Assembly: GCA_004402915.1 (NCBI GenBank)
Contig: SORU01000015.1
Location: 1-34,368 of the forward strand
Direction: 5' to 3'
Length of the DNA stretch: 34,368 nt
Origin: Fidelibacterota bacterium MT.SAG.2
GTDB lineage: Bacteria; Fidelibacterota; SORT01
Under the pieces are notes generated by a model that was given only the letters and a program-made list of their open reading frames with translations, was not told the DNA's origin and searched no databases. Shown piece after piece: positions 1,556 to 30,565 of the stretch. The position numbers and the translations under genes are program-made. Within the stretch, counting starts at the first letter, position 1, and every line of letters begins with the position of its first letter.

Positions 1556-2137
1556 TTAGCCTTCAAAAGTACCCATCGTTTCTTCATCTGATTTATTAAT
1601 ATCACGCTGTAACAATACTTTCCAGATCGTTAAAAATATTATCTTAATGTCTAATGCAAGAGATTGATTCTCGACATACCAAATATCATATTCAAATTTT
1701 TTATCCCAACTAATAGTATTGCGACCGTTGATTTGAGTCCAACCTGTAATTCCGGGTTTTACATCATGCCGCCTGTTCTGTTCGGCTGAATACAACTTTA
1801 AGTATTCCGGAAGCAAAGGTCTTGGACCGACGATACTCATCTCCCCTCGTATTACGTTTAAGATAGAAGGTATCTCATCCAAACTAGATTTTCTTAAAAA
1901 ATTCCCTAGCTTGGTAATTCGTGATTTATCCTGAATATCGTTTTCACCTATTAAAATCGGCTTCATAGTTCTCAACTTATATAACGTAAAGACCTCTCCT
2001 TTTAAGCCTGCGCGTCTCTGTTTAAATATTATCGGAAAACCATCTATTGATATGATAATAGCACTTAATACCACAATCAACGGAATTAAAAAAATCAACC
2101 CAACAATTGACAAAAGTAAATCAACTATTCTTTTCAT
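1556..2137 (-). CDS. PglC-like monotopic undecaprenyl-phosphate sugar phosphotransferase
   Basis: Initiating phosphoglycosyltransferase that moves a sugar-1-phosphate from a UDP-sugar to undecaprenyl phosphate at the inner face of the cytoplasmic membrane. The protein has 193 residues, the small PglC-type length with no extra N-terminal membrane domain. A re-entrant hydrophobic helix occupies residues 5-30. 'YKLRTMKP' follows at 53-60, the catalytic Asp-Glu pair is in 'SLDEIP' (87-88), 'VGPRPLLPEY' at 103-112 and 'GITGWTQINGRN' at 129-140. The start overlaps the end of the upstream glycosyltransferase gene by 17 nt, showing co-transcription. It is the only initiating transferase seen in the window, so it probably sets the first sugar of the repeat unit. 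Confidence 0.95.
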   Translation of the reverse strand: MKRIVDLLLSIVGLIFLIPLIVVLSAIIISIDGFPIIFKQRRAGLKGEVFTLYKLRTMKPILIGENDIQDKSRITKLGNFLRKSSLDEIPSILNVIRGEMSIVGPRPLLPEYLKLYSAEQNRRHDVKPGITGWTQINGRNTISWDKKFEYDIWYVENQSLALDIKIIFLTIWKVLLQRDINKSDEETMGTFEG

Positions 2138-3356
2138 TCTGATATGTCTTCATTAAAAGATTGATAAATTTTTTAGAGAGTTTTCCTCTTTCAAATTCCG
2201 TCAAAGCTAATTGGTAAGCATTATCTCCCATGACTTTGAGCATATCCCGATTTTCTGCAAACTGTTCCATCGCGTCTGCAAATGCCGCTGAATCTCCGGG
2301 AGGAACATAAATACCACATTCTCTCTCTTCTATCAGTGAAGCCAGCCAGCCCGGGTAATTTATCAGTATAGGCAATCCGGATGCAATATAGTCAAAAAAT
2401 TTGTTTGGTGAGGTACCATAGTAAAATGCCGGAATGTCTGCGAGTATCATCAATCCGACATCCATAGTTTTTAATTCTTCAACTAAATTATACTTCGATA
2501 TCGGATCATTAAATTCTATGTTTGTTAATTTTTCTTTTCTCGTTCTTTCCATAAGCTCGGGTTTTAGCATACCGTTTCCGATAAGATTAAATTTCACATC
2601 TTGACGCCCTCTCGTTTGTAACTCAACAGCAGTGTCTATAACTGCGTTTAATCCATTTGCGATACCATGCGCACCTGTAAAAACTGCTTGCAATACATCG
2701 TTCTTTCTTTGAAAGTTTTCTACGGATCGCTTAGGCGATATTTGGTGAAGATCGATATCACTCCCATTGGGAATCATTTCAATTTTTGCCGGCTTCACAC
2801 CTTTCCTCTCAATACCTTCGACAATTCCCGGAGATAAACCAATGCAGGCATCAGCTGAACGATAAGAAATCCACTCTAAGGATGAAAGAATCATCAAAAC
2901 AAATGGGTTGGTAATGACTCTCATTTCTTTGGGCAATTCGGGCCAGAGATCCCTGACCTCAAACACAAAGACTTTATTTCGAAGCCAGTGTGATAATATA
3001 CCCGGGATTGCGACTGTCAATGGTGTTGATGTACAGAATATTAAATCATATTTCATTGTTAAGGCAATAAATGTACTTTTCCATGCAAATCTGAAGAAAA
3101 TAACACTTCTCTTAAAGAAATTGTCTTTGCTCGAATAGGATATCTCCATTTCGATTATATTTATACTTTCAACAACTCCTCTTCTCACACCGCGCACAAA
3201 CTGCCCAATTAAACCTGAATCTCCATTTTCATGAGATCCACAGAGAAGAGTTACATTATGACCTTCTTTCACTAATTGTTTTGAGAATTCGTAGGATCTT
3301 GTTCCTCCCGCCCCTTCAGGGGTAGTAAAATGTTGATGAATATATAAAATATGCAT
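2121..3356 (-). CDS. WbuB-like GT4 glycosyltransferase
   Basis: Retaining GT-B glycosyltransferase of 411 residues. The start 'MHILYIHQHFTTPEGAGGTRSYEFSK' is characteristic of the WbuB group, which transfers N-acetyl-L-fucosamine in some O antigens. The second Rossmann domain has 'AVFTGAHGIANGLNAVIDTA' and the donor-site region 'YYGTSPNKFFDYIASGLPIL', where the usual E-x7-E is only loosely kept. It ends 17 nt inside the PglC-like gene and starts 7 nt after the heparinase-family gene, so it sits in a tight operon. A role as second transferase, acting on the lipid-linked first sugar, is inferred from the pairing with the initiating transferase. The WbuB resemblance is interesting because a WbuX-type amidination module also lies in the window, but donor identity cannot be read from sequence. 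Confidence 0.9.
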   Translation of the reverse strand: MHILYIHQHFTTPEGAGGTRSYEFSKQLVKEGHNVTLLCGSHENGDSGLIGQFVRGVRRGVVESINIIEMEISYSSKDNFFKRSVIFFRFAWKSTFIALTMKYDLIFCTSTPLTVAIPGILSHWLRNKVFVFEVRDLWPELPKEMRVITNPFVLMILSSLEWISYRSADACIGLSPGIVEGIERKGVKPAKIEMIPNGSDIDLHQISPKRSVENFQRKNDVLQAVFTGAHGIANGLNAVIDTAVELQTRGRQDVKFNLIGNGMLKPELMERTRKEKLTNIEFNDPISKYNLVEELKTMDVGLMILADIPAFYYGTSPNKFFDYIASGLPILINYPGWLASLIEERECGIYVPPGDSAAFADAMEQFAENRDMLKVMGDNAYQLALTEFERGKLSKKFINLLMKTYQNEKNS

Positions 3357-3363
3357 TGTTTTT

Positions 3364-5247
3364 TTAGTTTAATTCTATGAGGGTCTGAACTCGAATATCG
3401 CCCGGAGCGAATTCGATTTCTAAGACAGGAATCTCTGTTTTATTTAGATAATAGTGAGATTCAAATCCTGTGTTCAATTCTATTTTCTTAGCTTCATTAT
3501 TAGATTCAATAGTCAATTTGCCAAATTCACTTTTAATTATATTGCCACTTAATTCCCATTCACCGGGAATAAGTCGCCATCGCAATATGGCTTTTTTTGT
3601 GTGACCATTAAAATGGTCAATAACACGCAAATAATCCTTGGTAAATTGTATACTTCTCCTGTGATAACAACCTTTGTAATCGATGTATTCTCCGCAATAC
3701 GTAACTATGTCATTATTAACTGCTAATCGTTCTATGTGATTTAATTTTATCCATGATCCAAATAAAAATTTCCCTATTCTGGGCATTTGATCACGATCAT
3801 CAAATTGGACAGTATTATGCGACTGCGTTCCGGAGAAATATTCTGCCCATTTAGTGTTGGCATTATAGCTATAGCTTCCTCCATCTCTCAAAATGTTTTT
3901 TCCTTCATTCCAGATATCTAAATGGAAAATATCAGATTGAGCAGGTCTAAATTTAAAATTCGGTATTCGCATTATCCCCCAGCGGATACGTGTTTTATCA
4001 TTTGGAAAAGGACCGATGAAATTATAGCCCCCATCTTTAAAATGTTTTGTCGCAAAGGTTTTGTTTGGTGGTATCATTTTCTTGAAATCCAACCAGAATA
4101 TTTCATCATCCCAATTGGTAGTATAATAAATATTTTTGCCTAAAAAATAAAGAGCCGCCAGCTCAATCGTACTTCTATAATTTCTATAATCATCATTAGA
4201 ACAGTTAATCAACTTTGCTCCATCATTTCCTCCTAAATTGGGTCCATTTCCTGAGAAAGGATCAATAAAATGACACAGCCAATTAATCGCCGAAGTTATT
4301 CTTTCATAGTACTCATCACTCATTCGATCGAGTTTAAGTTTCTCCATGAAAAATTCAGACAGAATTAGTGTATCCAGCAACACTCGATGGTAATTTAATG
4401 AATACTGTGAAAAACTACCGTCAGGTTCAATAAGGCTTAAAACTCTTTCTTCAAGCCATCTACGCCCCTTCTTTTTCCAATTTAAAGCCTGCTTAAGCTC
4501 TCCGGATTTTAATTCACCATATTCAGATAACCAAGCTCCACCTACGAACATGGCAGTAGCTTCACTGGTGCCGTGGTTATTATTTTGAGCTTTTGCATAT
4601 TGAAAGGTAACCATAATTCTTTTGCAGTGGTTCTGAACAAACCTTATCAATGCGTTATTGGGTTTTTCAAAATCTTTTGTTATATGGGCTGCTAATAAAA
4701 CATTAAGCATTCGAATAGATGTTTCTTGTCCGCAAACCCAATTCGGACCCCGGTTTGGAGGATTATTCACATTCCAATCTCCAATCCATTTGTTTAAGGT
4801 ATTAAGATATTTTTTATCCTTGGTAACAGCAAATGCTCTCGCCAAATGGACAGCCCAATCAAATCGCGAAGGTTCCCAAATTGCTTTAATATCACCAATT
4901 GAAGAGTCGTGTTCATCAATATTAGACCAGTGATATTTTATATTTGAAAGCCGTATGGAATTATAAGGGTTTTTGAACCAGTCAGGAGGAGATCCCACTT
5001 CAAATGATTCAGAAGAAAAGTACTTTAAATATCCGTTAATGATATTATCTGCATATTTAGTATCATATGATAGATTCTTGTTATTGTTTTTCTCAGACTT
5101 ATTTGATTCAAAAATAGAGTTATTTTTAGACTTACCGATGGGATATAAAAATCTGTAAATACCTAACTTTAAAGATAATCTATGAAATAGAACGCGGAGT
5201 AAATTCAGGATTCCAAGCCGATAATATGTAAATAATTTCTCTATCAT
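3364..5247 (-). CDS. Heparinase II/III-family protein of a polysaccharide biosynthesis locus
   Basis: 627 residues with the two-part heparinase II/III layout. An N-terminal alpha/alpha toroid (about 60-390) contains 'NNNHGTSEATAMFVGGAW' and 'FSQYSLNYHRVLLDTL', which carry candidate catalytic Asn, His and Tyr. A C-terminal beta-sandwich (about 410-627) contains 'ILRDGGSYSYN' and 'GTQSHNTVQFDDRDQMPR'. Known members cleave uronate-containing glycans by beta-elimination. This one has no signal peptide; its basic, amphipathic N-terminus is common to homologues inside capsule clusters, so it probably acts in the cytoplasm or at the membrane rather than as a secreted lyase. It sits next to a fused dehydrogenase/oxidoreductase, a pairing I recall from other exopolysaccharide clusters. 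Exact reaction unknown. Base composition is clearly AT-rich. Confidence 0.85.
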   Translation of the reverse strand: MIEKLFTYYRLGILNLLRVLFHRLSLKLGIYRFLYPIGKSKNNSIFESNKSEKNNNKNLSYDTKYADNIINGYLKYFSSESFEVGSPPDWFKNPYNSIRLSNIKYHWSNIDEHDSSIGDIKAIWEPSRFDWAVHLARAFAVTKDKKYLNTLNKWIGDWNVNNPPNRGPNWVCGQETSIRMLNVLLAAHITKDFEKPNNALIRFVQNHCKRIMVTFQYAKAQNNNHGTSEATAMFVGGAWLSEYGELKSGELKQALNWKKKGRRWLEERVLSLIEPDGSFSQYSLNYHRVLLDTLILSEFFMEKLKLDRMSDEYYERITSAINWLCHFIDPFSGNGPNLGGNDGAKLINCSNDDYRNYRSTIELAALYFLGKNIYYTTNWDDEIFWLDFKKMIPPNKTFATKHFKDGGYNFIGPFPNDKTRIRWGIMRIPNFKFRPAQSDIFHLDIWNEGKNILRDGGSYSYNANTKWAEYFSGTQSHNTVQFDDRDQMPRIGKFLFGSWIKLNHIERLAVNNDIVTYCGEYIDYKGCYHRRSIQFTKDYLRVIDHFNGHTKKAILRWRLIPGEWELSGNIIKSEFGKLTIESNNEAKKIELNTGFESHYYLNKTEIPVLEIEFAPGDIRVQTLIELN

Positions 5248-5548
5248 CGTTTTTTTAAACTACCTACTTTAAGTGAAATTACTATTTACTGTTAAATTAA
5301 TTGGAATCGACTCCTAAAATGAGACACTTTCTCCCTATTGTAAGAACATTTCTAATACTCTTTCGGTGTGCTGAACCAAACATGCTCTGATAGAGTTGTT
5401 TCTATATACCATTAATTTAAAGTTGATTTCAATGGGTCTAAAAGCCCGTTTCTATTAAAGGATCCACTGGATCTGCTTATTCTGAGGATTCCATGCAGCA
5501 ATATGTCCAAATGATATACTCTCAAATTTTAGGATAATTTGCTTTTCA
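5248..5548. other. Intergenic region before the heparinase-family gene
   Basis: 301 bp without a convincing gene. On the minus strand there is a weak promoter-like TTGAAA-18-TATATA, and a small inverted repeat GATCCA-C-TGGATC lies near 5461. A minus-strand frame that starts inside the 3' end of the upstream gene stays open to about 5460 and encodes 'FGHIAAWNPQNKQIQW', reminiscent of PQQ-dehydrogenase propeller repeats. It is too short to call more than a possible gene scrap. The gap probably separates two transcription units or carries an internal promoter. Confidence 0.35.
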
Positions 5549-7690
5549 TTACTCAAGAAATTTTGCAATCTCGATAGTTGTTTTGGAAACTTCAATTAAT
5601 TCCTCGAATGATATCGGAGATTTATCACCTTTATCTATAGCGTTTAAAAAAGAGTGGACCGAACCGTTATGCCCTTTATCCTGTCTCATTGATTTCATTT
5701 TTGAAAACCCCTTCCAACCATATCCTATCAGAGACCTATAATTATTTAGCTGTAAAATAGAACCATCGCAAAATACTTCAATCCGTTCCTTTGGATATTT
5801 GTTACTCCCGTTAGCAAAATAGTGAATAGTGCCTATCGACCCGTTTTTGAACTTCAAGGAGATTGTTACGATGTCGTTATTCAATTCCGTATTCGATTTT
5901 GGAAGCATCTTGATAGCATGGTTTGAAACAATCTCACTATCTGCCAGAAATCGCAACAGGTCAATAAAGTGGCACACTTCACCTATAATTCGACCGCCAC
6001 CGATGCTGGAATCTTGTGTCCAGTGATCCTGCGGAATAGCGCCTGCGTTAACCGTTATAATAAAACTACAAGGTTGCTTTTTACCGGCGATCAAACTTTT
6101 TATCTTTCGAACCATTGGCGCAAACCTGCGATTAAAGCCCACCATCAATATTGTACCAGACTCATTTTTAGAATTTGCCTGTTCATACTCTCTCTTTATC
6201 TGCTCCAAATCATCCAATTTTAACGCAAGTGGTTTTTCAACATAAATATTCTTGCCCGCTCGAATCCCCTTCATTACAATATCAGCATGTGAATCGTGTC
6301 TGGTAGCAATTGCGAGAATACCAATCTGCTTATCATCAAACAAATGATCCATATCTGTAGATGAATTCAAAAAGCCGTACTTTTTCGCAGCATGAGCAGC
6401 GCTCAATCCATTCTTGCTCACAATTGTGTGCATTTTCGCATTTGACTTTATAAATGCGGGGATCAAAATCCTTGATGCAAAATTGCCTGCCCCTATAAAT
6501 GCGCAGAATTTATTTTCAGTACCCTTTTTGGGGGGCTTATGAGATAATTGCTGATTTGGAATTATTCGAGTCATACTTTTATCGGTGTCATATTCTAATA
6601 TCGTACCCAAAGTATTACCGTTTTTACTCAAATCCGTGTATGCATCCGGGCTATTTTCAAATTTCACTTGAGCGCTAATTAACGGATCGATCAACATCGT
6701 TCCCTTCCTGATCATATCTAATACCGCAAAAATATTACGTTGAGCCGTCCATCGAACATAACTAAACGGATAGTCTATCCCCTTCTCCTCATAATCACTA
6801 TCATATTTTCCTGGACCAAACGAACAGGACACTTGAAAGGATATTTCGCTCTTATAAAAATCTTCTCTCTTAAGTTCTAAGCCGGTCACGCCAATTAATA
6901 TGATCCTACCTCTTTTACGACACATTTGCGCCGCTTGTGTGATCGGATCGTTACTCGATGTGGAAATGGCGAGAATAACTCCATCAACTCCTCTTCCATC
7001 AGAAAATGACCTTATGAATGAAACCGGATCACTCATTTCGGTAGAATTTATGCTCTCGATGCCAAGTTTTTTTGCTAATTGTACTTTAGAGTTGTTGATA
7101 TCAATCCCGATAACATCACAACCGTTTGCTTTCAATATTTGTGCCGTAATTAAACCGATCAGTCCTAATCCGAATACGACAAATTTTTCTCCAATCTGAG
7201 GCTTTGCCAATCTTACCCCTTGGAGTCCTATTGCGCCTACAATAGCAAATGGTGCGTGCGATATTTCTACCCCTTCGGGTACTTTGATAGAGAGATTTTT
7301 AGAAACACACACGTATTCAGCGTGAGGCCCGTTAGACACCACCTTATCGCCGACAGAAAATTCATTAATATTATCTGATACATCTACAACGGTTCCAACA
7401 TTGCAATAGCCTAAAGTCATAGGCTGATTTAGTTTTGATCTTACCGCATTAATTGTAGTTGCAAACCCATCGGTTTTTATTTTGCCCAAAACATCCTTAA
7501 CTTTACCCGGTTGCTGACGAGCCTTACCCCATAATGAGGCATTCCCAAAATCCAAAAGCATTTTTTCTGTACCCAAAGAAATAAGACTATAATCAGAGCG
7601 GATGAGAATCTCTCCACTTCCGACCTTTGGTACCGGTACTTCTATCGTTTTAACATCACCAGTATTAATATTAATTTGTAATTGCTTCAT
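5549..7690 (-). CDS. Two-domain oxidoreductase: zinc-type alcohol dehydrogenase fused to Gfo/Idh/MocA dehydrogenase
   Basis: 713 residues combining two NAD(P)-dependent enzymes. Residues 1 to about 360 are a medium-chain (zinc-type) dehydrogenase with 'GYCNVGTVVDV' and the nucleotide-binding 'VFGLGLIGL' at about 172-180. From about residue 395 a Gfo/Idh/MocA domain begins with 'FIGAGNFASRI' and carries the family signature 'YVEKPLAL' near 480. The same fusion is known beside heparinase II/III-family genes in polysaccharide clusters, where it is thought to oxidise or epimerise a sugar nucleotide; its reaction is not established. An AGGGTG-like ribosome binding site precedes the ATG. A partial promoter (TTGACA at 7754-7759, poor -10) lies just upstream. 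Confidence 0.92.
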   Translation of the reverse strand: MKQLQININTGDVKTIEVPVPKVGSGEILIRSDYSLISLGTEKMLLDFGNASLWGKARQQPGKVKDVLGKIKTDGFATTINAVRSKLNQPMTLGYCNVGTVVDVSDNINEFSVGDKVVSNGPHAEYVCVSKNLSIKVPEGVEISHAPFAIVGAIGLQGVRLAKPQIGEKFVVFGLGLIGLITAQILKANGCDVIGIDINNSKVQLAKKLGIESINSTEMSDPVSFIRSFSDGRGVDGVILAISTSSNDPITQAAQMCRKRGRIILIGVTGLELKREDFYKSEISFQVSCSFGPGKYDSDYEEKGIDYPFSYVRWTAQRNIFAVLDMIRKGTMLIDPLISAQVKFENSPDAYTDLSKNGNTLGTILEYDTDKSMTRIIPNQQLSHKPPKKGTENKFCAFIGAGNFASRILIPAFIKSNAKMHTIVSKNGLSAAHAAKKYGFLNSSTDMDHLFDDKQIGILAIATRHDSHADIVMKGIRAGKNIYVEKPLALKLDDLEQIKREYEQANSKNESGTILMVGFNRRFAPMVRKIKSLIAGKKQPCSFIITVNAGAIPQDHWTQDSSIGGGRIIGEVCHFIDLLRFLADSEIVSNHAIKMLPKSNTELNNDIVTISLKFKNGSIGTIHYFANGSNKYPKERIEVFCDGSILQLNNYRSLIGYGWKGFSKMKSMRQDKGHNGSVHSFLNAIDKGDKSPISFEELIEVSKTTIEIAKFLE

Positions 7691-7755: not shown

Positions 7756-8880
7756 TCAAGATGCATATGTGCCTTTTCTCCACTTTGTATAACGTGCGGC
7801 ACGTTTGATCTGGTTCACCATATTATCAATTGTGAATTTAGTTTCAACTAGTTGTTTGCTTTTTTGACCCATTTCTGCGCATATATCAGGATTGATTTGA
7901 AGGTATTTAATTGCCTGATAAAAATCATCTACACTTCCACCAGAAAGATGAAACCCTGTCACCTTATCCTGAACTAAATCATACTCGGTGCCGTCTGCCT
8001 GGTGGACTATTATCGGCAACCCAAAAGCCATTGCTTCTGAGATAACAATACCACCTCGACCTGGAATCATTAGCACATCTGCGGAACGAAGATATAGGGG
8101 CAGCTCATCAACCATCCGTCCCGGAAGAAATACGTTAGAAAGTTCTTCGCGTGTGGCTTGTTCGAGCAAACTTTCAAGAAGGGGACCGGTACCGAGCAAA
8201 ACAAAATTGAATCTCTCACTATCAGATTTTTTAGCCAGATCCAACATAACGCCGGGCCGCTTATTTTCGTCCAATGTCCCCAGATAGAGGACTGTGAATC
8301 GTTCAGGCAGTCCAAGCTTTTGCCTCGCTTTAGAAGTAGTATCAGTCATAGAGTCTGAAATGGAGAGGAAACGTTGAATTCCACCAACGTTTGTTGCAAC
8401 AAACACCTTCTCGTCCGGTTGACCGAGCTTCAACAGGCATTCTTTGCTAAATGATGAATACACGACAAAAGCATCAAAGAATCTCCGAAAAAAAGCCTTT
8501 ATAAGTGATCGAAATCCTTTACCGCCAATAGAGGGCCAACCCGGAAGCGAAATATAACACCAGTGCATCAATGCAACACGTCTGTTGAACAAATATTTGT
8601 AGCCGATCGCCTGAAGGTAACCAACGAAATGGCTCTCTCCCTCGCAAAGGATGACGTCCGGGTTGAATTTCCGAAGCTCACCGACCAATCCAACATGCCA
8701 TTGGAGGGTACGGGCATTTAAGGGTAAAAAGAGAGTTTTCAGCTTTCGATAATTAATGCCCCTTAGATCCGGACCGCTCTTAATTTTGGTGTTAGGGACA
8801 TCCTCCCCTATTCCATGCTCGGTTGCGGTCAAGTACTTGGGTCTGCATCTACCACAAGCATAGTATGACCAAATGCTCAT
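7756..8880 (-). CDS. GT4 glycosyltransferase, 5'-truncated second copy
   Basis: 374 residues. From residue 25 to the 'IKRAA' near the C-terminus it is identical to the intact glycosyltransferase at 9852-11096, because both lie in a direct repeat of about 1 kb. The first 24 residues ('MSIWSYYACGRCRPKYLT...') are unrelated to the intact copy and replace its first beta-alpha-beta unit ('RLAILQRVCTGYRVPLFEQ'). The acceptor domain is therefore incomplete. The C-terminal tail also differs ('RYTKWRKGTYAS'). The donor half ('VLYLGTLDENKRPGVML', 'GRGGIVISEAMAFGLP') is intact. The ATGA overlap with the sulfotransferase stop at 8877-8880 means it is probably translated. It may be inactive and best regarded as a duplication remnant, or it may serve as a 3'-end cassette for recombination. 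Confidence 0.75.
   Translation of the reverse strand: MSIWSYYACGRCRPKYLTATEHGIGEDVPNTKIKSGPDLRGINYRKLKTLFLPLNARTLQWHVGLVGELRKFNPDVILCEGESHFVGYLQAIGYKYLFNRRVALMHWCYISLPGWPSIGGKGFRSLIKAFFRRFFDAFVVYSSFSKECLLKLGQPDEKVFVATNVGGIQRFLSISDSMTDTTSKARQKLGLPERFTVLYLGTLDENKRPGVMLDLAKKSDSERFNFVLLGTGPLLESLLEQATREELSNVFLPGRMVDELPLYLRSADVLMIPGRGGIVISEAMAFGLPIIVHQADGTEYDLVQDKVTGFHLSGGSVDDFYQAIKYLQINPDICAEMGQKSKQLVETKFTIDNMVNQIKRAARYTKWRKGTYAS
7796..8808. repeat. Direct repeat copy 1 (about 1,013 bp)
   Basis: Matches 9898-10910 at a constant offset of 2,102 nt. Every line I compared was identical, and the translations are identical throughout. Identity stops sharply at 8808/10910. On the other side it fades: of the 13 bp beyond 7796/9898, 9 match. 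The pair flanks the sulfotransferase gene. Confidence 0.95.
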
Positions 8881-9791
8881 TTCCAGTCACTCAAATCAAT
8901 TGATAGAAGTTTTTCGAGACCGGCAATGTCTTCCGCGTAAAAAGAGCGGAGTTGTTGCTCAATTTCGGCGTTCAACATGGGTTTAGCGCTTCGATCAAAT
9001 TTTGCTAAAACGAACTTGTCGATCCCATTAATTACACGAATCATGACTCGGGGATAAAAACCGGGTCGTCTGTAAATCCTCATCTTATCCTCACTTAACA
9101 TCTTATACTTGTTACTGATACTCGTAAAACGAAGCCGCCACATCGAATGAACCCCCTTCATCGGTCGCTTGCTTAGCGCTCGTGGCCTGTAGGATGTGTC
9201 TATCCCGAGGAAACTATAAGCTTGCCGTACCACTTCCAAGGGGGTCTTTCTCACATCTTCGAACAATCTTATGAAGAGTTGGCTGCGATCAAAATATTCC
9301 AGGTAATGTCGTAGATGTTTATAATATAACCCAAAGTCAAGTATCTCCTGAGACCGCGGATAATTTGTAGCATATTCACCATTCAGGATACGGGCCATTC
9401 CTAAATTGAGTGAACAAATGGGAAGAATACCGTGCCGAATATCGTGGAAATAGCAAGAAACAGCTCTCTTCACCGGATCTCTGAGGATGGCAATCAACCT
9501 AGCGTTGGGGATGTGAGTGTAAATCCTCTCAAGGCACAGAGGCATGGCGAGGTAGTTCGGCCGCTTTATCCCGATGAGTAGGTCGTCTGGAATGCCATCA
9601 AACTGGGTAGCAAACTTCTCTATTCCTATTCTAACGTATTCCGGATCCTCAAAAAAAGCATCTTCTTCTCTATTCATGTAAACGGCCGGATGCTCCCTAA
9701 TACACTCCTGCAAAAAGGTGGAGGCGGATTTCTGTGCGCCAATAATTACAAAATCCGGTAGCCTAAGGCGAATAGGTATTTCATTAGACAT
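8877..9791 (-). CDS. PAPS-dependent carbohydrate sulfotransferase
   Basis: 304 residues of the Sulfotransfer_1/3 type, transferring sulfate from PAPS to a sugar hydroxyl. The 5'-phosphosulfate loop is 'IIGAQKSASTFLQ' (residues 16-28) and the 3'-phosphate site is 'AILRDPVKRAVSCYF' (101-115). The middle has the 'LFIRLFEDVRKTPLEVVRQAYSFLGI' segment typical of the family. No membrane anchor or signal peptide is seen, so it probably sulfates lipid-linked or nucleotide-linked sugar in the cytoplasm. A good AGAGAGAAGA ribosome binding site precedes the ATG at 9791. It lies exactly between two identical glycosyltransferase repeats, and its local G+C is visibly higher than the heparinase region. No PAPS synthesis genes are in the window. 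Confidence 0.92.
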   Translation of the reverse strand: MSNEIPIRLRLPDFVIIGAQKSASTFLQECIREHPAVYMNREEDAFFEDPEYVRIGIEKFATQFDGIPDDLLIGIKRPNYLAMPLCLERIYTHIPNARLIAILRDPVKRAVSCYFHDIRHGILPICSLNLGMARILNGEYATNYPRSQEILDFGLYYKHLRHYLEYFDRSQLFIRLFEDVRKTPLEVVRQAYSFLGIDTSYRPRALSKRPMKGVHSMWRLRFTSISNKYKMLSEDKMRIYRRPGFYPRVMIRVINGIDKFVLAKFDRSAKPMLNAEIEQQLRSFYAEDIAGLEKLLSIDLSDWK

Positions 9792-9851
9792 TATTCTTCT
9801 CTCTTTCCTGCCATGTCAAACGGCATGATATGTTCGCCTATACACTTGATC

Positions 9852-11096
9852 TCAAGTATTATAGTTGCGATCATGGCTTGCTTTCTTTACATAATGAGCG
9901 GCACGTTTGATCTGGTTCACCATATTATCAATTGTGAATTTAGTTTCAACTAGTTGTTTGCTTTTTTGACCCATTTCTGCGCATATATCAGGATTGATTT
10001 GAAGGTATTTAATTGCCTGATAAAAATCATCTACACTTCCACCAGAAAGATGAAACCCTGTCACCTTATCCTGAACTAAATCATACTCGGTGCCGTCTGC
10101 CTGGTGGACTATTATCGGCAACCCAAAAGCCATTGCTTCTGAGATAACAATACCACCTCGACCTGGAATCATTAGCACATCTGCGGAACGAAGATATAGG
10201 GGCAGCTCATCAACCATCCGTCCCGGAAGAAATACGTTAGAAAGTTCTTCGCGTGTGGCTTGTTCGAGCAAACTTTCAAGAAGGGGACCGGTACCGAGCA
10301 AAACAAAATTGAATCTCTCACTATCAGATTTTTTAGCCAGATCCAACATAACGCCGGGCCGCTTATTTTCGTCCAATGTCCCCAGATAGAGGACTGTGAA
10401 TCGTTCAGGCAGTCCAAGCTTTTGCCTCGCTTTAGAAGTAGTATCAGTCATAGAGTCTGAAATGGAGAGGAAACGTTGAATTCCACCAACGTTTGTTGCA
10501 ACAAACACCTTCTCGTCCGGTTGACCGAGCTTCAACAGGCATTCTTTGCTAAATGATGAATACACGACAAAAGCATCAAAGAATCTCCGAAAAAAAGCCT
10601 TTATAAGTGATCGAAATCCTTTACCGCCAATAGAGGGCCAACCCGGAAGCGAAATATAACACCAGTGCATCAATGCAACACGTCTGTTGAACAAATATTT
10701 GTAGCCGATCGCCTGAAGGTAACCAACGAAATGGCTCTCTCCCTCGCAAAGGATGACGTCCGGGTTGAATTTCCGAAGCTCACCGACCAATCCAACATGC
10801 CATTGGAGGGTACGGGCATTTAAGGGTAAAAAGAGAGTTTTCAGCTTTCGATAATTAATGCCCCTTAGATCCGGACCGCTCTTAATTTTGGTGTTAGGGA
10901 CATCCTCCCCAATGAAAAGAGTCATATCTACTTCTTCGGTCTCTGAAAGTTGTTCAAACAGGGGTACGCGATAACCTGTACAGACTCGCTGAAGAATTGC
11001 CAGGCGTATGGGTCTCGCTGGATTTTCGTCCGTACTTTCTGGAGAACTCTGGCTTTTCATTGATGTGCGCGATCCACTGTCCTTTAGTAAACTCAT
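9852..11096 (-). CDS. GT4 glycosyltransferase, full-length copy
   Basis: 414-residue GT-B glycosyltransferase. After a polar N-terminal leader of about 28 residues, the first Rossmann unit is 'IRLAILQRVCTGYRVPLFEQL'. The acceptor domain follows, with 'DVILCEGESHFVGYLQAIG'. The donor domain has 'TVLYLGTLDENKRPGVMLDL' and the E-x7-E-like region around 'GGIVISEAMAFGLPIIVHQADG'. ATG 11096 is taken as the start, with a short GGG upstream; an internal ATG at 11060 is possible because the first 12 residues look non-conserved. Its 3' three-quarters are duplicated downstream at 7756-8880. With the sulfotransferase it probably adds and modifies one sugar of the repeat unit (inference from adjacency). 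Confidence 0.9.
   Translation of the reverse strand: MSLLKDSGSRTSMKSQSSPESTDENPARPIRLAILQRVCTGYRVPLFEQLSETEEVDMTLFIGEDVPNTKIKSGPDLRGINYRKLKTLFLPLNARTLQWHVGLVGELRKFNPDVILCEGESHFVGYLQAIGYKYLFNRRVALMHWCYISLPGWPSIGGKGFRSLIKAFFRRFFDAFVVYSSFSKECLLKLGQPDEKVFVATNVGGIQRFLSISDSMTDTTSKARQKLGLPERFTVLYLGTLDENKRPGVMLDLAKKSDSERFNFVLLGTGPLLESLLEQATREELSNVFLPGRMVDELPLYLRSADVLMIPGRGGIVISEAMAFGLPIIVHQADGTEYDLVQDKVTGFHLSGGSVDDFYQAIKYLQINPDICAEMGQKSKQLVETKFTIDNMVNQIKRAAHYVKKASHDRNYNT
9898..10910. repeat. Direct repeat copy 2 (about 1,013 bp)
   Basis: Partner of 7796-8808, in the same orientation, lying inside the intact glycosyltransferase gene. Absence of any visible silent difference between copies implies a recent duplication, ongoing gene conversion, or an assembly artefact. 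Confidence 0.95.
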
Positions 11097-11220: not shown

Positions 11221-11916
11221 TCATAAGAAAGCTCCCATCTCTCTTTGGGCTATCTCAAAATCATCGGATGTGCCGATATCGATAAAATAATCATCGCTTG
11301 GCATAATTTGGATGTTAATATCTCCGCTTCGTTTGTTTAAAAAATCGATTTCAAATGAGAAGACCGGCGGTAGAGATGCCGATAACAGTATATCCTTATT
11401 TATCAAATATATACCGCCATTGATAAATCCTGCCTTGCCTTTTACCTTCTCCTCAAAAGAAACAAGACTTCCTGTTTTATCAAACTTTACTGTGCCGTAC
11501 CGATCCGGATCTTCTAGAAATTTTGCAGCAATTGTTACGTCAGCGTCTTTTGCGCTGTGAACCGCTAGCAATTTAAAGATATCAATCTGGAAATATGTGT
11601 CGCCGTTGACGACTAAAATCGGGTTTGTATTCACAAATTTCAGTGATTGCAGAATGCCTCCGCCGGTCCCTAATGGTGCATCTTCAACGGAATATTCGAT
11701 GTCGATTGTCCCAAAGCGATATCGAAAATGATCACTAATAACCTTATTCATGAAACCCACTGATATAACAGCCTTCGTTACACCTCCCCTTTGAAGATGG
11801 GTCAGAATATATTCAAGAAAAGGCCGTCCATTCACTATCGCCATTGGTTTGGGGACATCCTTCACCTTGCTTTTTAGTCGGGTACCAAGGCCTCCAGCAA
11901 GGATTATCGCCTCCAT
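11221..11916 (-). CDS. hddC: D-glycero-alpha-D-manno-heptose 1-phosphate guanylyltransferase-like nucleotidyltransferase
   Basis: 231-residue sugar-nucleotidyltransferase. It has the signature 'IILAGGLGTRLKSKVKDVPKPM', the HddC-like stretch 'FRYRFGTIDIEYSVEDAPLGTGGGIL' and the metal-binding Asp in 'PILVVNGDTYFQ'. The family makes GDP- or NDP-sugars; the HddC call is supported by the HddA-like kinase and two GMD-like SDRs in the same operon. The frame is open from a TTG at 11919, but the ATG at 11916 is preferred; GGAGG lies 9 nt upstream of it. Predicted reaction: heptose-1-phosphate + GTP to GDP-D-glycero-alpha-D-manno-heptose. A related hexose-1-phosphate substrate is possible. Confidence 0.85.
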   Translation of the reverse strand: MEAIILAGGLGTRLKSKVKDVPKPMAIVNGRPFLEYILTHLQRGGVTKAVISVGFMNKVISDHFRYRFGTIDIEYSVEDAPLGTGGGILQSLKFVNTNPILVVNGDTYFQIDIFKLLAVHSAKDADVTIAAKFLEDPDRYGTVKFDKTGSLVSFEEKVKGKAGFINGGIYLINKDILLSASLPPVFSFEIDFLNKRSGDINIQIMPSDDYFIDIGTSDDFEIAQREMGAFL

Positions 11917-12015
11917 CAATATTATCCTCCAAAAAAAATTTGTTTTATACCTCTTTGTCCTTATTATGATATGTTTCCTCTTTCAATGACACAAGCTTCT
12001 TTTATAGTAAATTCA

Positions 12016-17841: not shown

Positions 17842-19032
17842 TCAAACTTGAATCTCTTCATTGGAAAATAACAAATGCCGAATCATTACTATCCAATTTA
17901 AGAATATAGCAGTACCATGCGCTAAAAGTACCGCAAGAGCCGCTCCCGTCGCCATCCATTGGGGGATTAGTAGGTAAAATAGTACAACACTAAGACCACC
18001 GGTTAGAAAAACTATTATGAAGTAAACTCTCTCTTTTCGGACAGCCACAAGGTACTGGGTGGCTACTTGCCCAATTCCTATAGCAATAACATAGAATCCA
18101 AGAATCCTCATAGAACTGGCCGCCGATGCATACTCAGGAGGGAATATTTGCATGATTTGAGTTGAAAAGAAAATTGCAGGTAACCCAATTACGGTGCCAG
18201 CCATAGCAGAAAGAGCAGTGTATTGAAGGAGAAAGCGTATCCGACGGGTTGGTGACACTCCAGGTTTCACTATCCTCGCAATGCGCGGATTCCCAACACG
18301 ACCGACCTGCGTTATCAGTATCATACCCAGAAGAACAACCAGCCAAGCAACGGAATATTCCCCGAGTTCTCCACTACCGGAGATATGTTTCAATACGATC
18401 TTACTTAACCCTCCAAAGGACAATGTTGCAATTATTGCGCTCCAGACCCACAGATTCTTTTTGAGCATGACGACTGCTAACAAATTGGCTTTTTGATCCA
18501 TCCGAAGATTGAGCTGAGGAAGGGCCCAGCGATACTGCAGTGAGAGACCCAGAATTACAGAGATGAACATGAATATTGAAATAGCCGTAATAGAAAGACT
18601 TTCTTCGAAGAAAAGTATGAATGTCCATATGCAGATGAAATAAAGACTTCGTTCTGACAGAAGATAGACCGCACTTCGTTTCATATTATCCCAGGCATCG
18701 TAAATCGCCGCGAGATTAAATGCTTTGATTCCCATTGTTAGAACGATCAAGATACCCCCAAACCGAAGTTGATTTTCTTCTGCGACCAGCGCGTTCACGC
18801 CAAATATACCAACGAGGGCTAACGTCAACATTGATCCTCTCAAGAGGATACTAGCAGAGGCGTATTCGTCAAAGCGCTTCGGAAAGTGCACCAAGTCGCG
18901 GATTAGAGTGCGCTCCAAACCGCAATTTGCAATTGTAATACAATATCCGCCCACGGTGATAGCATAGGAAAAATCTCCGAAAAGTTCTTTTCCAAATACT
19001 TTGGCGATTATTATCATCGTGATGAAAGACAT
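17842..19032 (-). CDS. Wzx-type oligosaccharide flippase, 5' end probably frameshifted
   Basis: Polytopic MATE/MOP-fold protein that would flip the lipid-linked repeat unit across the inner membrane. About 11-12 hydrophobic segments are seen over 396 residues, with Wzx-like 'AKVFGKELFGDFSYAITVGGYCITIANCGLERTLIRDL' near the start. The first ATG (19032) falls inside the first membrane helix. The same frame continues upstream without a stop to about 19173 and encodes the expected cytoplasmic leader ('LLKNTLTYFNEKERERRH') but has no ordinary start codon. An ATG at 19172, touching the polymerase stop, is one base out of frame. The intact protein would have about 443 residues. The Wzx role is inferred from topology and neighbours. 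Confidence 0.85.
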   Translation of the reverse strand: MSFITMIIIAKVFGKELFGDFSYAITVGGYCITIANCGLERTLIRDLVHFPKRFDEYASASILLRGSMLTLALVGIFGVNALVAEENQLRFGGILIVLTMGIKAFNLAAIYDAWDNMKRSAVYLLSERSLYFICIWTFILFFEESLSITAISIFMFISVILGLSLQYRWALPQLNLRMDQKANLLAVVMLKKNLWVWSAIIATLSFGGLSKIVLKHISGSGELGEYSVAWLVVLLGMILITQVGRVGNPRIARIVKPGVSPTRRIRFLLQYTALSAMAGTVIGLPAIFFSTQIMQIFPPEYASAASSMRILGFYVIAIGIGQVATQYLVAVRKERVYFIIVFLTGGLSVVLFYLLIPQWMATGAALAVLLAHGTAIFLNWIVMIRHLLFSNEEIQV

Positions 19033-19172: not shown

Positions 19173-20666
19173 TTAATCGTTTTCGAGGACTTTTATTTTA
19201 TGTAAATTCTGATATTGTTTTGTGAATTCCACACATGAAGCAATGATCATTCCATTGATAAATAAGCCCTTGCCTGACCAATACAGCTGAAACATGGCCG
19301 TAACAAGAAAGGCTACCATGCATAACATCATACCATTCAGCAACATTGGTTTTCCTTTAGAAAATATGTTCCTATTACGCAATTTTCTGAATATGTTGGA
19401 ACCCGGAATGATCCATAGCGCTGGAATCAGGACTAAACCTAACAAGCCGTATTTGAGATATATAACCAAAGGGAAAAAATGTGCCGAATAGAATTTACCT
19501 GTTTCGAAACTATAATCGGGAAAAGCACTTGCTTTTATTAGTATCAACGGGAATTTAAGGGCAATATCATCATAAAAACCACCGTAACCCATTCCCCACA
19601 TATAGGCATTACGTCTTTTAACTGAGTCAATAATATTTAAGCCTTCAGCAAAGCGAACCGGATCAATTCTCGATATTATATTGGGGTTTACCCCAACGTC
19701 AAATTTGCTAACATCACGACCTTGTGTAATCGTTATAGAGCGAGCGGTTATAACCTCTAGCGATTCAGGCTTTGTAATGAATAATGTCCAAATACTTACT
19801 GTTGTCAGCAAACCCATCATAGAAACGAAAAACACGCTCCGGCGAATACCAAGGATCGAGAGTAGAACGATGCCTCCAAGCAAGAATGTCAGCCATAGCA
19901 TACGCGTACCATAAGTCGCAAGCAAGAGGATAGATAATATGGTGATTGCCGAGCCGAGCAATACGCGCTTTCGCACCCAAATAAGAATAACGCCGAAGAA
20001 AATGAGAAAGACCACACCACCCTTCGCAGAATCCTCGCTGACGCGATTTACTCCCTCTGCAATGGCAGGACCGAAGTTGGCAACGAAATAAAGCAGGTCA
20101 ATGAAATGACGGGCCAGAAGGACTCCGACAAATACGGAAAGAACAAGAGTTAAGTTGCGTGGGTCTGTTCTGTATAGTGACAAAAACAAAATCGTGCTCA
20201 TAAGAAGCATTAAGGGAAATTTTAGGTCTCTCACAACTTCAATCGACGCATAGTCTCCGAAAAATCCTCCATAAATCAGTCCCGTAATAACCGGCACTGT
20301 TGCAAACCAGAGGATCGCCCGATTAATAAACGGGGGAAGCGTTATTTTCCGAGCCTTGAAAAACTGACAAAGTATGACTGTAAAAACAAACCAACTGGGA
20401 CGTATAGGTCCTAATCGCATCTGCCAGATCGAAGAAGTTGAATACAGCAGTTGGGCATCTGCCAGATCGCCGAAAGAGACTATGTCCTTCCCTGCGATAG
20501 CAAGCATCAGCAAAAGTATCAAAGCGGTTCGGAATGGTAATATGCAGATCGAGAGCATCAAAAAACCTATAATCGCGTAGGCACCGTAATATGCAATACC
20601 AAAATTATTCGGAATGTCCGAAAGGATAACAATTACAATGCCGTAAACGAAGAATCTAAAAATCAT
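19173..20666 (-). CDS. O-antigen polymerase/ligase-like membrane protein (Wzy type)
   Basis: 497 residues, strongly hydrophobic, with about 12 predicted membrane segments. A long, more polar stretch at about 290-390 ('NPNIISRIDPVRFAEGLNIIDSVKRRNAYMWGMGYGGFYDD') is the large periplasmic loop expected of Wzy and O-antigen ligase proteins, with 'GMGYGGF' recalling the G-x-G of that loop. It would join repeat units at the periplasmic face. Location directly upstream of the flippase (TAA-ATG junction) supports Wzy. Such proteins share little sequence, so the assignment rests on topology and context. The frame is open upstream to about 20765 without a usual start, and ATG 20666 begins the first membrane helix. 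Confidence 0.8.
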   Translation of the reverse strand: MIFRFFVYGIVIVILSDIPNNFGIAYYGAYAIIGFLMLSICILPFRTALILLLMLAIAGKDIVSFGDLADAQLLYSTSSIWQMRLGPIRPSWFVFTVILCQFFKARKITLPPFINRAILWFATVPVITGLIYGGFFGDYASIEVVRDLKFPLMLLMSTILFLSLYRTDPRNLTLVLSVFVGVLLARHFIDLLYFVANFGPAIAEGVNRVSEDSAKGGVVFLIFFGVILIWVRKRVLLGSAITILSILLLATYGTRMLWLTFLLGGIVLLSILGIRRSVFFVSMMGLLTTVSIWTLFITKPESLEVITARSITITQGRDVSKFDVGVNPNIISRIDPVRFAEGLNIIDSVKRRNAYMWGMGYGGFYDDIALKFPLILIKASAFPDYSFETGKFYSAHFFPLVIYLKYGLLGLVLIPALWIIPGSNIFRKLRNRNIFSKGKPMLLNGMMLCMVAFLVTAMFQLYWSGKGLFINGMIIASCVEFTKQYQNLHKIKVLEND

Positions 20667-28057: not shown

Positions 28058-29152
28058 TTATAATGATTGGCTTTGATCATCATCTTGTTTTCTACCAAAT
28101 CTCAGCAGATGTGCTAATTCGGCAATATCAGATTTCAAGGGATTTGTGATCTTATTGAACATTATTCTATATTTGTCATCTGACAGAACATTAACGAAAT
28201 AATTTTTTAAAAACACGGTAATTGTGCTAACTGACAAAGAAATTATTATGCCAAATACTAATATACGTAATCGTTTAGGTTTGCTCTTAAAAACAGGCGG
28301 TACAGCAACATCTAAAGTATTTACCACTTTCAAATTTTTTACTTCTTCAATCTTAGTTATCTCCAACTCTTTTTTGAGGGTCAAATATACCTCTTCCTGA
28401 ATCCTGACCTCTCTCATCAGCCTGCCTTGTTCAAGATTTAATTCCGGTGATTTTTCTATTCTCTTATTGACCTCTCTGAATTTTTTCAGACTTCCTTCTG
28501 AAGCGCTCAAAAGATCTTTTGTCTCATCGAGTCTTCCAATAATAAAGTTCTTACTTTCTTCTGCCTTTTTTCGGCCAATAAGTTTTAGAAATGCATCAAG
28601 TTCATACACTAAAGCATTTATTATCATCGAAGATAATTCCGGATTAAAGGTCTCAATGCTGATTATCGTCATACCCGTATTTATCTCGTTATCTATCTCA
28701 ATTTTATTCCTTAAAAAGAAAAGAGCATTCTGGAGTAATTCATTGGAATCGTTGCCTGAAATATCGAATAAATCAAAAAATGATCTTCCACTTTGCATAT
28801 TTTTTATTACATAATCGTTGTAAATAATTTTTAATAAAACCGTTCTACTCAGAAGAATCGGTTTGTACAATCGCGAATTACTGGAACTTGGTCCTAAACC
28901 TATCCCTGGAATTCCTCCGGCTGCTAATACCATTGATTGCAATGAACTCGCTTCTTTCGCATTCTCAGGTAATAATGAAGCTTCAGCACGATAAACAGGT
29001 CTTGCAACCAAAATGTATATAACAAAAATTGAGATTATAGTAATAAACAAAACGACAAACAATATTCTGTGTCTGACAAGAATTTCAGCTGCGTTAAGGA
29101 TATCTTTAACTCTCAAGAAAATATTTGATTCGTTATCTTCAGTAAAATTCAT
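28058..29152 (-). CDS. Wzz-type chain-length determinant protein
   Basis: 364 residues with the polysaccharide co-polymerase layout: a membrane helix at about 30-50 ('ILFVVLFITIISIFVIYILVA'), a large periplasmic domain with helical, coiled-coil-like content at about 190-270, and a second helix near 295-320. The second helix follows the proline-containing stretch 'VAVPPVFKSKPKRLRILVFG', which is the Wzz signature. There is no cytoplasmic tyrosine kinase domain. It would tune polymer length with the Wzy-like protein. It is transcribed alone, convergent with the amidination operon, and a promoter-like sequence lies at 29299-29327. Confidence 0.9.
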   Translation of the reverse strand: MNFTEDNESNIFLRVKDILNAAEILVRHRILFVVLFITIISIFVIYILVARPVYRAEASLLPENAKEASSLQSMVLAAGGIPGIGLGPSSSNSRLYKPILLSRTVLLKIIYNDYVIKNMQSGRSFFDLFDISGNDSNELLQNALFFLRNKIEIDNEINTGMTIISIETFNPELSSMIINALVYELDAFLKLIGRKKAEESKNFIIGRLDETKDLLSASEGSLKKFREVNKRIEKSPELNLEQGRLMREVRIQEEVYLTLKKELEITKIEEVKNLKVVNTLDVAVPPVFKSKPKRLRILVFGIIISLSVSTITVFLKNYFVNVLSDDKYRIMFNKITNPLKSDIAELAHLLRFGRKQDDDQSQSL

Positions 29153-29432: not shown

Positions 29433-30284
29433 TCATGCTGCACGATTCCTATTAAATTCAGAAAAATATACCTCATCAGGAGTCATTCTGTCAAGCGATT
29501 GATGAGTTCTTTCAGAATTGTAAAAGTCCATCCATGTTCTGATTGATCTTCTTGCCTCTCTTATTGATTCGTAGGCCTTTTAATAAACTTCCTCATATTT
29601 CAAGCTCCGCCATAATCTCTCAATAAATACGTTGTCCAACCAACGACCCTTACCGTTCATGCTAATCTTTATCTGAGCGTCTTTCAGGACAGAGGTAAAA
29701 TCATCGCCGTTAAACTTAGATCCCTGATCCGTATTGAATATCTCCGGCTTACCATACCGATCTATCGCTTCTTTCAACGCCTCAACACAGAAATCACTTT
29801 CCATACTGATTGAGATTCTCCAACTCAAGACCTTGCGGCTATACCAGTCTATAATAGCCATTAGGTAAACAAAGCCCATAGGCATAGGGATATAAGTGAT
29901 ATCAGCGGCATAGAGCTGGTTGGGACGATCAATGGTCAGATTTCGAAGTAAATACGGATATACCTTATGACCCTTGCCCCGCTTACTGGTATTGGGCTTG
30001 CTGTATATGACATTGATACACATCAGTCCCATGAGTCGTTTTCGGTTGACCGTGTAGTCGATTCTACGATTGACCTGATCCCTTAAACTACGGCTACCCA
30101 TCCACGGATACTTTATGTGAAGCTCATCCAACAGTCGGCACAAGGCCAACTCTTGTACATCCGGTTCACTCCTTTTAAGTTTATAGTACAAGGTGGATCT
30201 GCTGATTTCAAATAGTTCACACTTAGTCGTCTTTGATAGTGTCTGATCTTCATTTATCATTGTTCTGCGCTCTTCCTTACTCAA
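29433..30284 (-). pseudogene. IS3-family transposase OrfB, interrupted by an in-frame stop
   Basis: Integrase-core transposase. The catalytic residues are all present: Asp in 'YAADITYIPMP', Asp in 'IFNTDQGSKFNG' and Glu in 'DNVFIERLWRSLKYEEVY'. A TAA at 29580-29582 follows 'EEVY', after which the same frame continues for 48 conserved codons ('KAYESIREARRSIRTW', 'SERTHQSLDRMTPDEVYF') to a TGA at 29433. The stop probably arose from a TTA Leu codon by one base change. The translated product from the TTG at 30284 is 234 residues and lacks the C-terminal helix region. It overlaps orfA by 4 nt and would normally be made as an OrfAB fusion by -1 frameshifting. Confidence 0.9.
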
Positions 30285-30565
30285 CGACCGAACGCTTTGG
30301 CTAAAAAATCTCGTTCCATGGTCAACTGACCGATCTTGGAGTGAAGTTTATCAATTTCTGCTTCCGTGTCTTTCCGATCTTTCTCCCCTGCGCCAAACAG
30401 ATCAACTGCTCCATCGGTAAGCATGTTCTTCCAACGTTGGATCTGATTTGGGTGCAAATCATATCTGCCGGCAAGTTCCGCAAGGGTATATTCTCCTTTT
30501 AATGCTTCTAAGGCTACCTTGGCCTTGAATGTGGAAGTGTGATTACGTCTTTTTCTTCTTATCAT
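30281..30565 (-). CDS. IS3-family transposase OrfA (helix-turn-helix)
   Basis: 94 residues. A basic N-terminal HTH, 'RKRRNHTSTFKAKVALEALKGEYTLAELAGRYDLHPNQIQRWK', is the HTH_8/transposase-8 domain that binds the IS ends. The coiled-coil leucine zipper 'AEIDKLHSKIGQLTMERDFLAKAF' follows. Intact and of the usual length. Near its end the coding strand has T-TTT-TTA (30302-30308) in the correct frame for -1 slippage into orfB. Confidence 0.93.
   Translation of the reverse strand: MIRRKRRNHTSTFKAKVALEALKGEYTLAELAGRYDLHPNQIQRWKNMLTDGAVDLFGAGEKDRKDTEAEIDKLHSKIGQLTMERDFLAKAFGR
30302..30308 (-). promoter_or_regulatory. Predicted -1 ribosomal frameshift heptamer TTTTTTA
   Basis: In the orfA frame (GAT-TTT-TTA-GCC) this is an X-XXY-YYZ heptamer. 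Slipping back one base enters the orfB frame, which is open from here through the orfB start. IS3 elements normally use A-AAA-AAG; this T-rich version matches the retroviral type. Confidence 0.6.

Follow-up and report, generated by a model that had tools for sequence, protein, structure and literature searches.

A putative sulfotransferase gene lies between direct copies of a glycosyltransferase segment in a predicted Wzx/Wzy-type polysaccharide locus

The window, by which we mean the whole stretch of 34,368 nt that was analysed, is a single contig (C15, SORU01000015.1) of a 118-contig MAG with a completeness of 66.65%. The predicted genes of the locus point to a polysaccharide cluster of the Wzx/Wzy type. 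To the left of the segment studied here it carries genes for an initiating sugar transferase (1556-2137), a GT4 protein (2121-3356), a heparinase II/III-like protein (3364-5247) and a fused Zn-dehydrogenase/Gfo-Idh-MocA protein (5549-7690). To the right there are genes for a sugar nucleotidyltransferase (11221-11919), a Wzx-like flippase (17842-19032), a protein of 497 aa (19173-20666) whose size and position make it a probable Wzy, and a Wzz-like chain-length protein (28058-29152). IS3-family transposase genes (orfA/orfB) are also found within the locus, at 29580-30565. A 63-nt intergenic stretch at 5302-5364 has two matches of 81-83% in a same-genus genome, where they occur without the surrounding genes, and is not repeated within the 1.27 Mb of its own genome that were searched. 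This stretch is possibly a small dispersed element or a conserved RNA or regulatory site.

The segment itself consists of three genes which follow each other on the minus strand: a full-length GT4 glycosyltransferase (GT), a sulfotransferase and a truncated GT4. Its GC3 of 0.40-0.47 is slightly above that of most neighbouring genes, and its tetranucleotide profile is within the range of the genome. When the window was compared with itself position by position at an offset of 2,102, we observed one unbroken exact run of 1,013 nt, in which 7796-8808 equals 9898-10910 with zero mismatches. An exact match of 1,013 nt is impossible by chance. We call this repeat R; both copies are read on the minus strand, copy 1 (7796-8808) inside the 5'-truncated GT4 ORF and copy 2 (9898-10910) inside the full-length one. 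The 1,089-bp interval between them (interval B, 8809-9897, minus strand) holds the first GT tail, a spacer, the sulfotransferase gene and the first codons of the truncated ORF. The 34-kb window contains no other direct or inverted repeat of at least 40 nt with a 20-nt exact seed. The first-pass annotation had reported an identical repeat of about 1,013 bp at this offset, with one copy in an intact GT4 gene, the other in a 5'-truncated one and a PAPS sulfotransferase between them. The exact self-comparison agrees with its coordinates and length, and the ORFs and Pfam matches agree with its gene assignments.

The full-length GT4-type glycosyltransferase (414 aa; 9852-11096, minus strand) ends in ...AHYVKKASHDRNYNT. 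Pfam places the GT4 ORFs in the Glycos_transf_1 / Glyco_transf_4 families, and in the full copy both Rossmann-like halves are there (PF13439, and PF00534 with an E value of 9e-23), while the truncated copy is without the N-terminal part. The truncated ORF (374 aa; 7756-8880, minus strand) starts with about 23 unrelated residues, for which we found no match, then enters R and ends in ...ARYTKWRKGTYAS; the first 61 GT residues are missing from it. A distant GT4, encoded in another family of the phylum, aligns with the full copy from residue 30 at 24% identity, and with the truncated copy only from its residue 64. Since the GT N-terminal region is absent, the truncated ORF is probably inactive. 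The sulfotransferase stop codon and the start codon of the truncated ORF overlap (ATGA), and given this overlap the ORF may be translated. We propose that the upstream full-length copy is the working one. An ancestral GT beside the dehydrogenase was sought in genome G051 (L167), where the GT4 gene that we found is barely related.

The sulfotransferase (304 aa; 8877-9791, minus strand) matches PF00685 (Sulfotransfer_1) with an E value of 2e-16 and 60.6 bits against a cut-off of 22. It is the sole PF00685 match found in the 66.65%-complete MAG, and the 1,013-nt direct repeats bracket this gene, a geometry of the type known from the Haemophilus influenzae type b cap/bexA locus. Its best solved relatives are 3RNL (E value 1.6e-25, residues 10-304) and heparan sulfate 3-O-sulfotransferases; this likeness fits a glycan substrate without proving it. 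From the position of the gene we infer that the enzyme would act on the polymer of the locus. The MAG encodes RecA as well as the ATP-sulfurylase and APS kinase families of PAPS synthesis, so both the deletion discussed below and sulfation are plausible in this organism. Elsewhere in the phylum, two or three related sulfotransferase genes form tandem arrays (G011:C124 52363-54083, G237:C310 21399-22909 and G239:C41 12451-15071).

The two edges of R behave differently. Beyond the 5' edge the two copies share no similarity. In the 13 nt directly past the 3' edge (7783-7795 in copy 1, minus strand) the tails are alike at 9 of 13 positions, a likeness with a frequency of 0.0017 among random window pairs, and then the similarity ends. 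This can mean either homologous tails with a recently homogenised body or a short chance likeness where the duplication was joined. The genome-wide search for repeats and copies covered 1.27 Mb (about 81% of the genome; contigs C59-C118 were left out). Within it, neither the junction of the truncated gene (8809-8880, the 72 nt before R) nor either of the tails has a further copy that could have been the donor of the junctions.

We also looked for the segment in other genomes. It is absent from 60 relatives in a protein search, a DNA search of 245 genomes from the phylum gave no match, and R has no match in same-genus or same-family genomes; long-term maintenance thus finds no support. Among other genome contigs, the search for relatives of the GT or the sulfotransferase in this arrangement gave only the contig described below, which carries part of interval B, and a distant sulfotransferase (27%) without a neighbouring GT. 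There was none in viral contigs, and plasmids gave weak GT4 matches only.

Comparison of the MAG contigs revealed exact 55-nt overlaps common to many contig ends, which point to a de Bruijn assembly of short reads with k=55. In several contigs (C29, C31, C40, C42, C43, C45, C53, C56 and C58) the first 55-mer is the reverse complement of the last 55-mer, a pattern that hints at joints of inverted orientation in the graph. An assembler of this kind may merge near-identical repeat copies as bubbles. Since slightly different copies can be merged, the identity of 100% describes the assembly and may not hold for the chromosome. A two-copy direct repeat without other attachments forms the loop A-R-B-R-C, where A and C are the flanks; it has a single complete traversal and is written once whatever its origin. 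A contig can in this way pass both copies of R, although such an assembler cannot span 1 kb. The exact identity of the copies, the number of R-B units and the coexistence of deleted cells cannot be read from the contig alone. In the 1.27 Mb searched, only three exact repeats exceed 200 nt, each inside one contig: R, a pair of tuf (EF-Tu) genes and a tandem protein repeat. The tuf copies are identical over 1,217 nt and lie 16 kb apart. A large protein (G000:C3 70895-73000) carries a 1,062-nt tandem repeat that is identical over 958 nt.

Part of interval B also occurs in an outside contig (L094, JADFLJ010000035.1), which is binned in the proteobacterial MAG B51T1L10. The 260 nt at the start of this contig correspond to 9898-9639 of the window, that is the minus strand, with 259 of 260 positions identical. 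Its first nucleotide is the last base of R, from which it continues into the sulfotransferase side, and past nt 260 it switches abruptly to unrelated DNA. It is a chimeric join in a GenBank MAG, involving DNA of the species of SORU01000015.1. Its start lies within one base of the edge of R, which means that a second assembly branches at this point too. A repeat would have this effect, and so would alternative neighbours. The name B51T1L10 points, as a link by name only, to site T1L10 of a Challenger Deep sediment study, which used SPAdes assembly up to k=127 and 350- or 550-bp inserts (PMC8938466; PMC9529941). At this published k-mer size (PMC8938466), a contig leaving R is expected to carry 127 nt of it, whereas the outside contig carries one base. 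We tried to read from it which branch of the graph had ended the contig, and this failed since one base of R does not fit k=127.

We then computed the consequence of losing 2,102 bp. The deletion yields one in-frame GT of 412 aa ending in ...AARYTKWRKGTYAS, and the sequence is the same in any register. The first-pass annotation had predicted that this loss would remove the sulfotransferase and leave a full-length GT with the other tail, and the computed product bears it out. Identical direct repeats of 1 kb recombine through RecA. In this locus such recombination would either remove the unit R-B, giving A-R-C, or multiply it, giving A-(R-B)n-R-C. For a given cell the loss cannot be undone except by re-import of the gene, while amplification is reversible. 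The expected outcome is thus sporadic permanent loss of sulfation together with variation in dosage, and not a two-way switch. The further suggestion that the cell could switch between a sulfated and an unsulfated polymer is not supported: the RecA deletion goes in one direction, no deletion form was seen and the locus was found in no relative searched.

The duplication could be an artefact in which the assembler combined the sequences of two strains, or of an A-R-C chromosome and a circular R-B, and the two copies do not occur on any one chromosome. A de Bruijn assembly, indicated here by the 55-nt overlaps, writes the loop once whatever the source, the branch k-mers fall exactly on the edges of R, and A-R-C cells mixed with R-B circles would yield the same graph. 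Moreover, the outside contig shows DNA of the same species in a chimeric join with proteobacterial sequence. However, if R is preceded only by A or B and followed only by B or C, some molecule must carry R-B and B-R, provided that the assembler discarded no branches of low coverage. The MAG assembly also gives a plausible arrangement for the tuf pair. Identical tuf genes are well known to occur as true pairs, which makes the treatment of such loops by the assembler credible here. The left and right flanks are as alike in tetranucleotides (0.180) as random pairs from the same contig (median 0.182), and this match speaks against a two-species chimera. The gene content across R is complementary, with the initiating transferase on the left and the Wzx-like flippase and the polymerase (assigned by size and position) on the right, and the locus has a single wzx-like, a single wzy-like and a single initiating transferase gene. 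The chimera of two strains that the first-pass annotation had offered as its alternative is weakened by all of this, although a strain mixture is harder to exclude than a chimera of two species. We consider an artefact unlikely. The duplication is probably genuine, for which the start of the outside contig at the edge of R also speaks, and the tuf control and the flank composition favour the presence of both copies in one chromosome. It is also doubtful that gene conversion explains the identity. Here, once-diverged GT paralogues with the tails AHYVKK and ARYTK, one on each side of the sulfotransferase, would have been made identical over 1,013 nt recently, and the second N-terminus would have been lost later. 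The likeness of 9/13 past the 3' edge suggests such homologous, diverged tails, but it is short, the 5' edge has no similarity and the truncated ORF is without the GT N-terminus.

The arrangement could also be an evolved phase variation of sulfation, in which selection keeps the duplication for sub-populations with or without sulfate, or with varied dosage. The geometry, which removes only the sulfotransferase and spares the glycosyltransferase, speaks for it, and the cap/bexA duplication of H. influenzae type b works alike (PMC13192263). Nevertheless, a simple deletion is one-way, neither a deletion nor an amplified form was observed, and there is no conservation across the strains and species searched, which makes this explanation improbable. 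Very improbable is the more specific proposal of a selected on/off and dosage control of surface-polysaccharide sulfation, in which the deletion regenerates a complete GT with a new C-terminal tail. Our preferred reading, to which we give a probability of roughly 0.62, is a genuine and probably recent partial duplication of the GT4 gene around the sulfotransferase, with loss and amplification through RecA as its by-product and not as an evolved switch. According to this reading, part of the GT4 gene would have been duplicated so that its copies flank the sulfotransferase in the Wzx/Wzy-type locus, and the downstream copy would have lost its N-terminal region. RecA recombination between the 1-kb copies would then remove the 2,102-bp unit with the sulfotransferase for good and leave one intact GT carrying a different tail, or would alternatively multiply the unit in tandem. 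The predicted result in the population is a sporadic, mostly one-way loss of sulfation with an occasional gain in dosage.

If both copies lie in one chromosome, a single decoration of the polymer, the sulfate, would be genetically unstable while the backbone enzyme is spared, which makes a plain testable case. Sulfate on the cell surface could influence how phages attach or how cations are bound. There is also a practical lesson in how repeats in MAG contigs are read.

Several known systems resemble this segment in part. Identical tuf pairs are direct copies of about 1 kb in one chromosome, as the copies of R probably are, and one such pair is present in the same MAG. Unlike the copies of R, both tuf genes are full length and functional, and they are 16 kb apart. 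In the group 1 CPS operon of Vibrio vulnificus, wzb is deleted between flanking repeats, which gives phase-locked translucent cells (PMC7247339). There, as in the polysaccharide locus described here, repeats flank one gene, and the deletion is one-way, as the predicted one here would be. In contrast to our case, the V. vulnificus repeats are short octamers, the lost gene encodes a phosphatase required for the capsule, and the deletion was observed by PCR. The closest likeness is in the capsule locus of H. influenzae type b, where the cap/bexA duplication was reportedly worked on by Hoiseth, Kroll and Moxon. Recombination-prone duplication in a polysaccharide locus is thus already known from Haemophilus capsules, with cap/bexA as the established precedent. 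The duplication is 17-18 kb long with bexA in the bridge, and recombination removes bexA and can amplify the unit (PMC13192263). Both loci combine a direct duplication around a single-copy gene of a surface polysaccharide with Rec-dependent loss and amplification, which are predicted for our segment. The differences are that the Haemophilus repeat is 17 kb, the loss of bexA abolishes export and the recombination was shown in culture, whereas here the repeat is 1 kb, the gene that would be lost encodes a putative sulfotransferase and recombination is predicted only. Seen beside this precedent, the segment is a plausible recombination hot spot, and most likely a duplication of recent origin that is unstable by nature.
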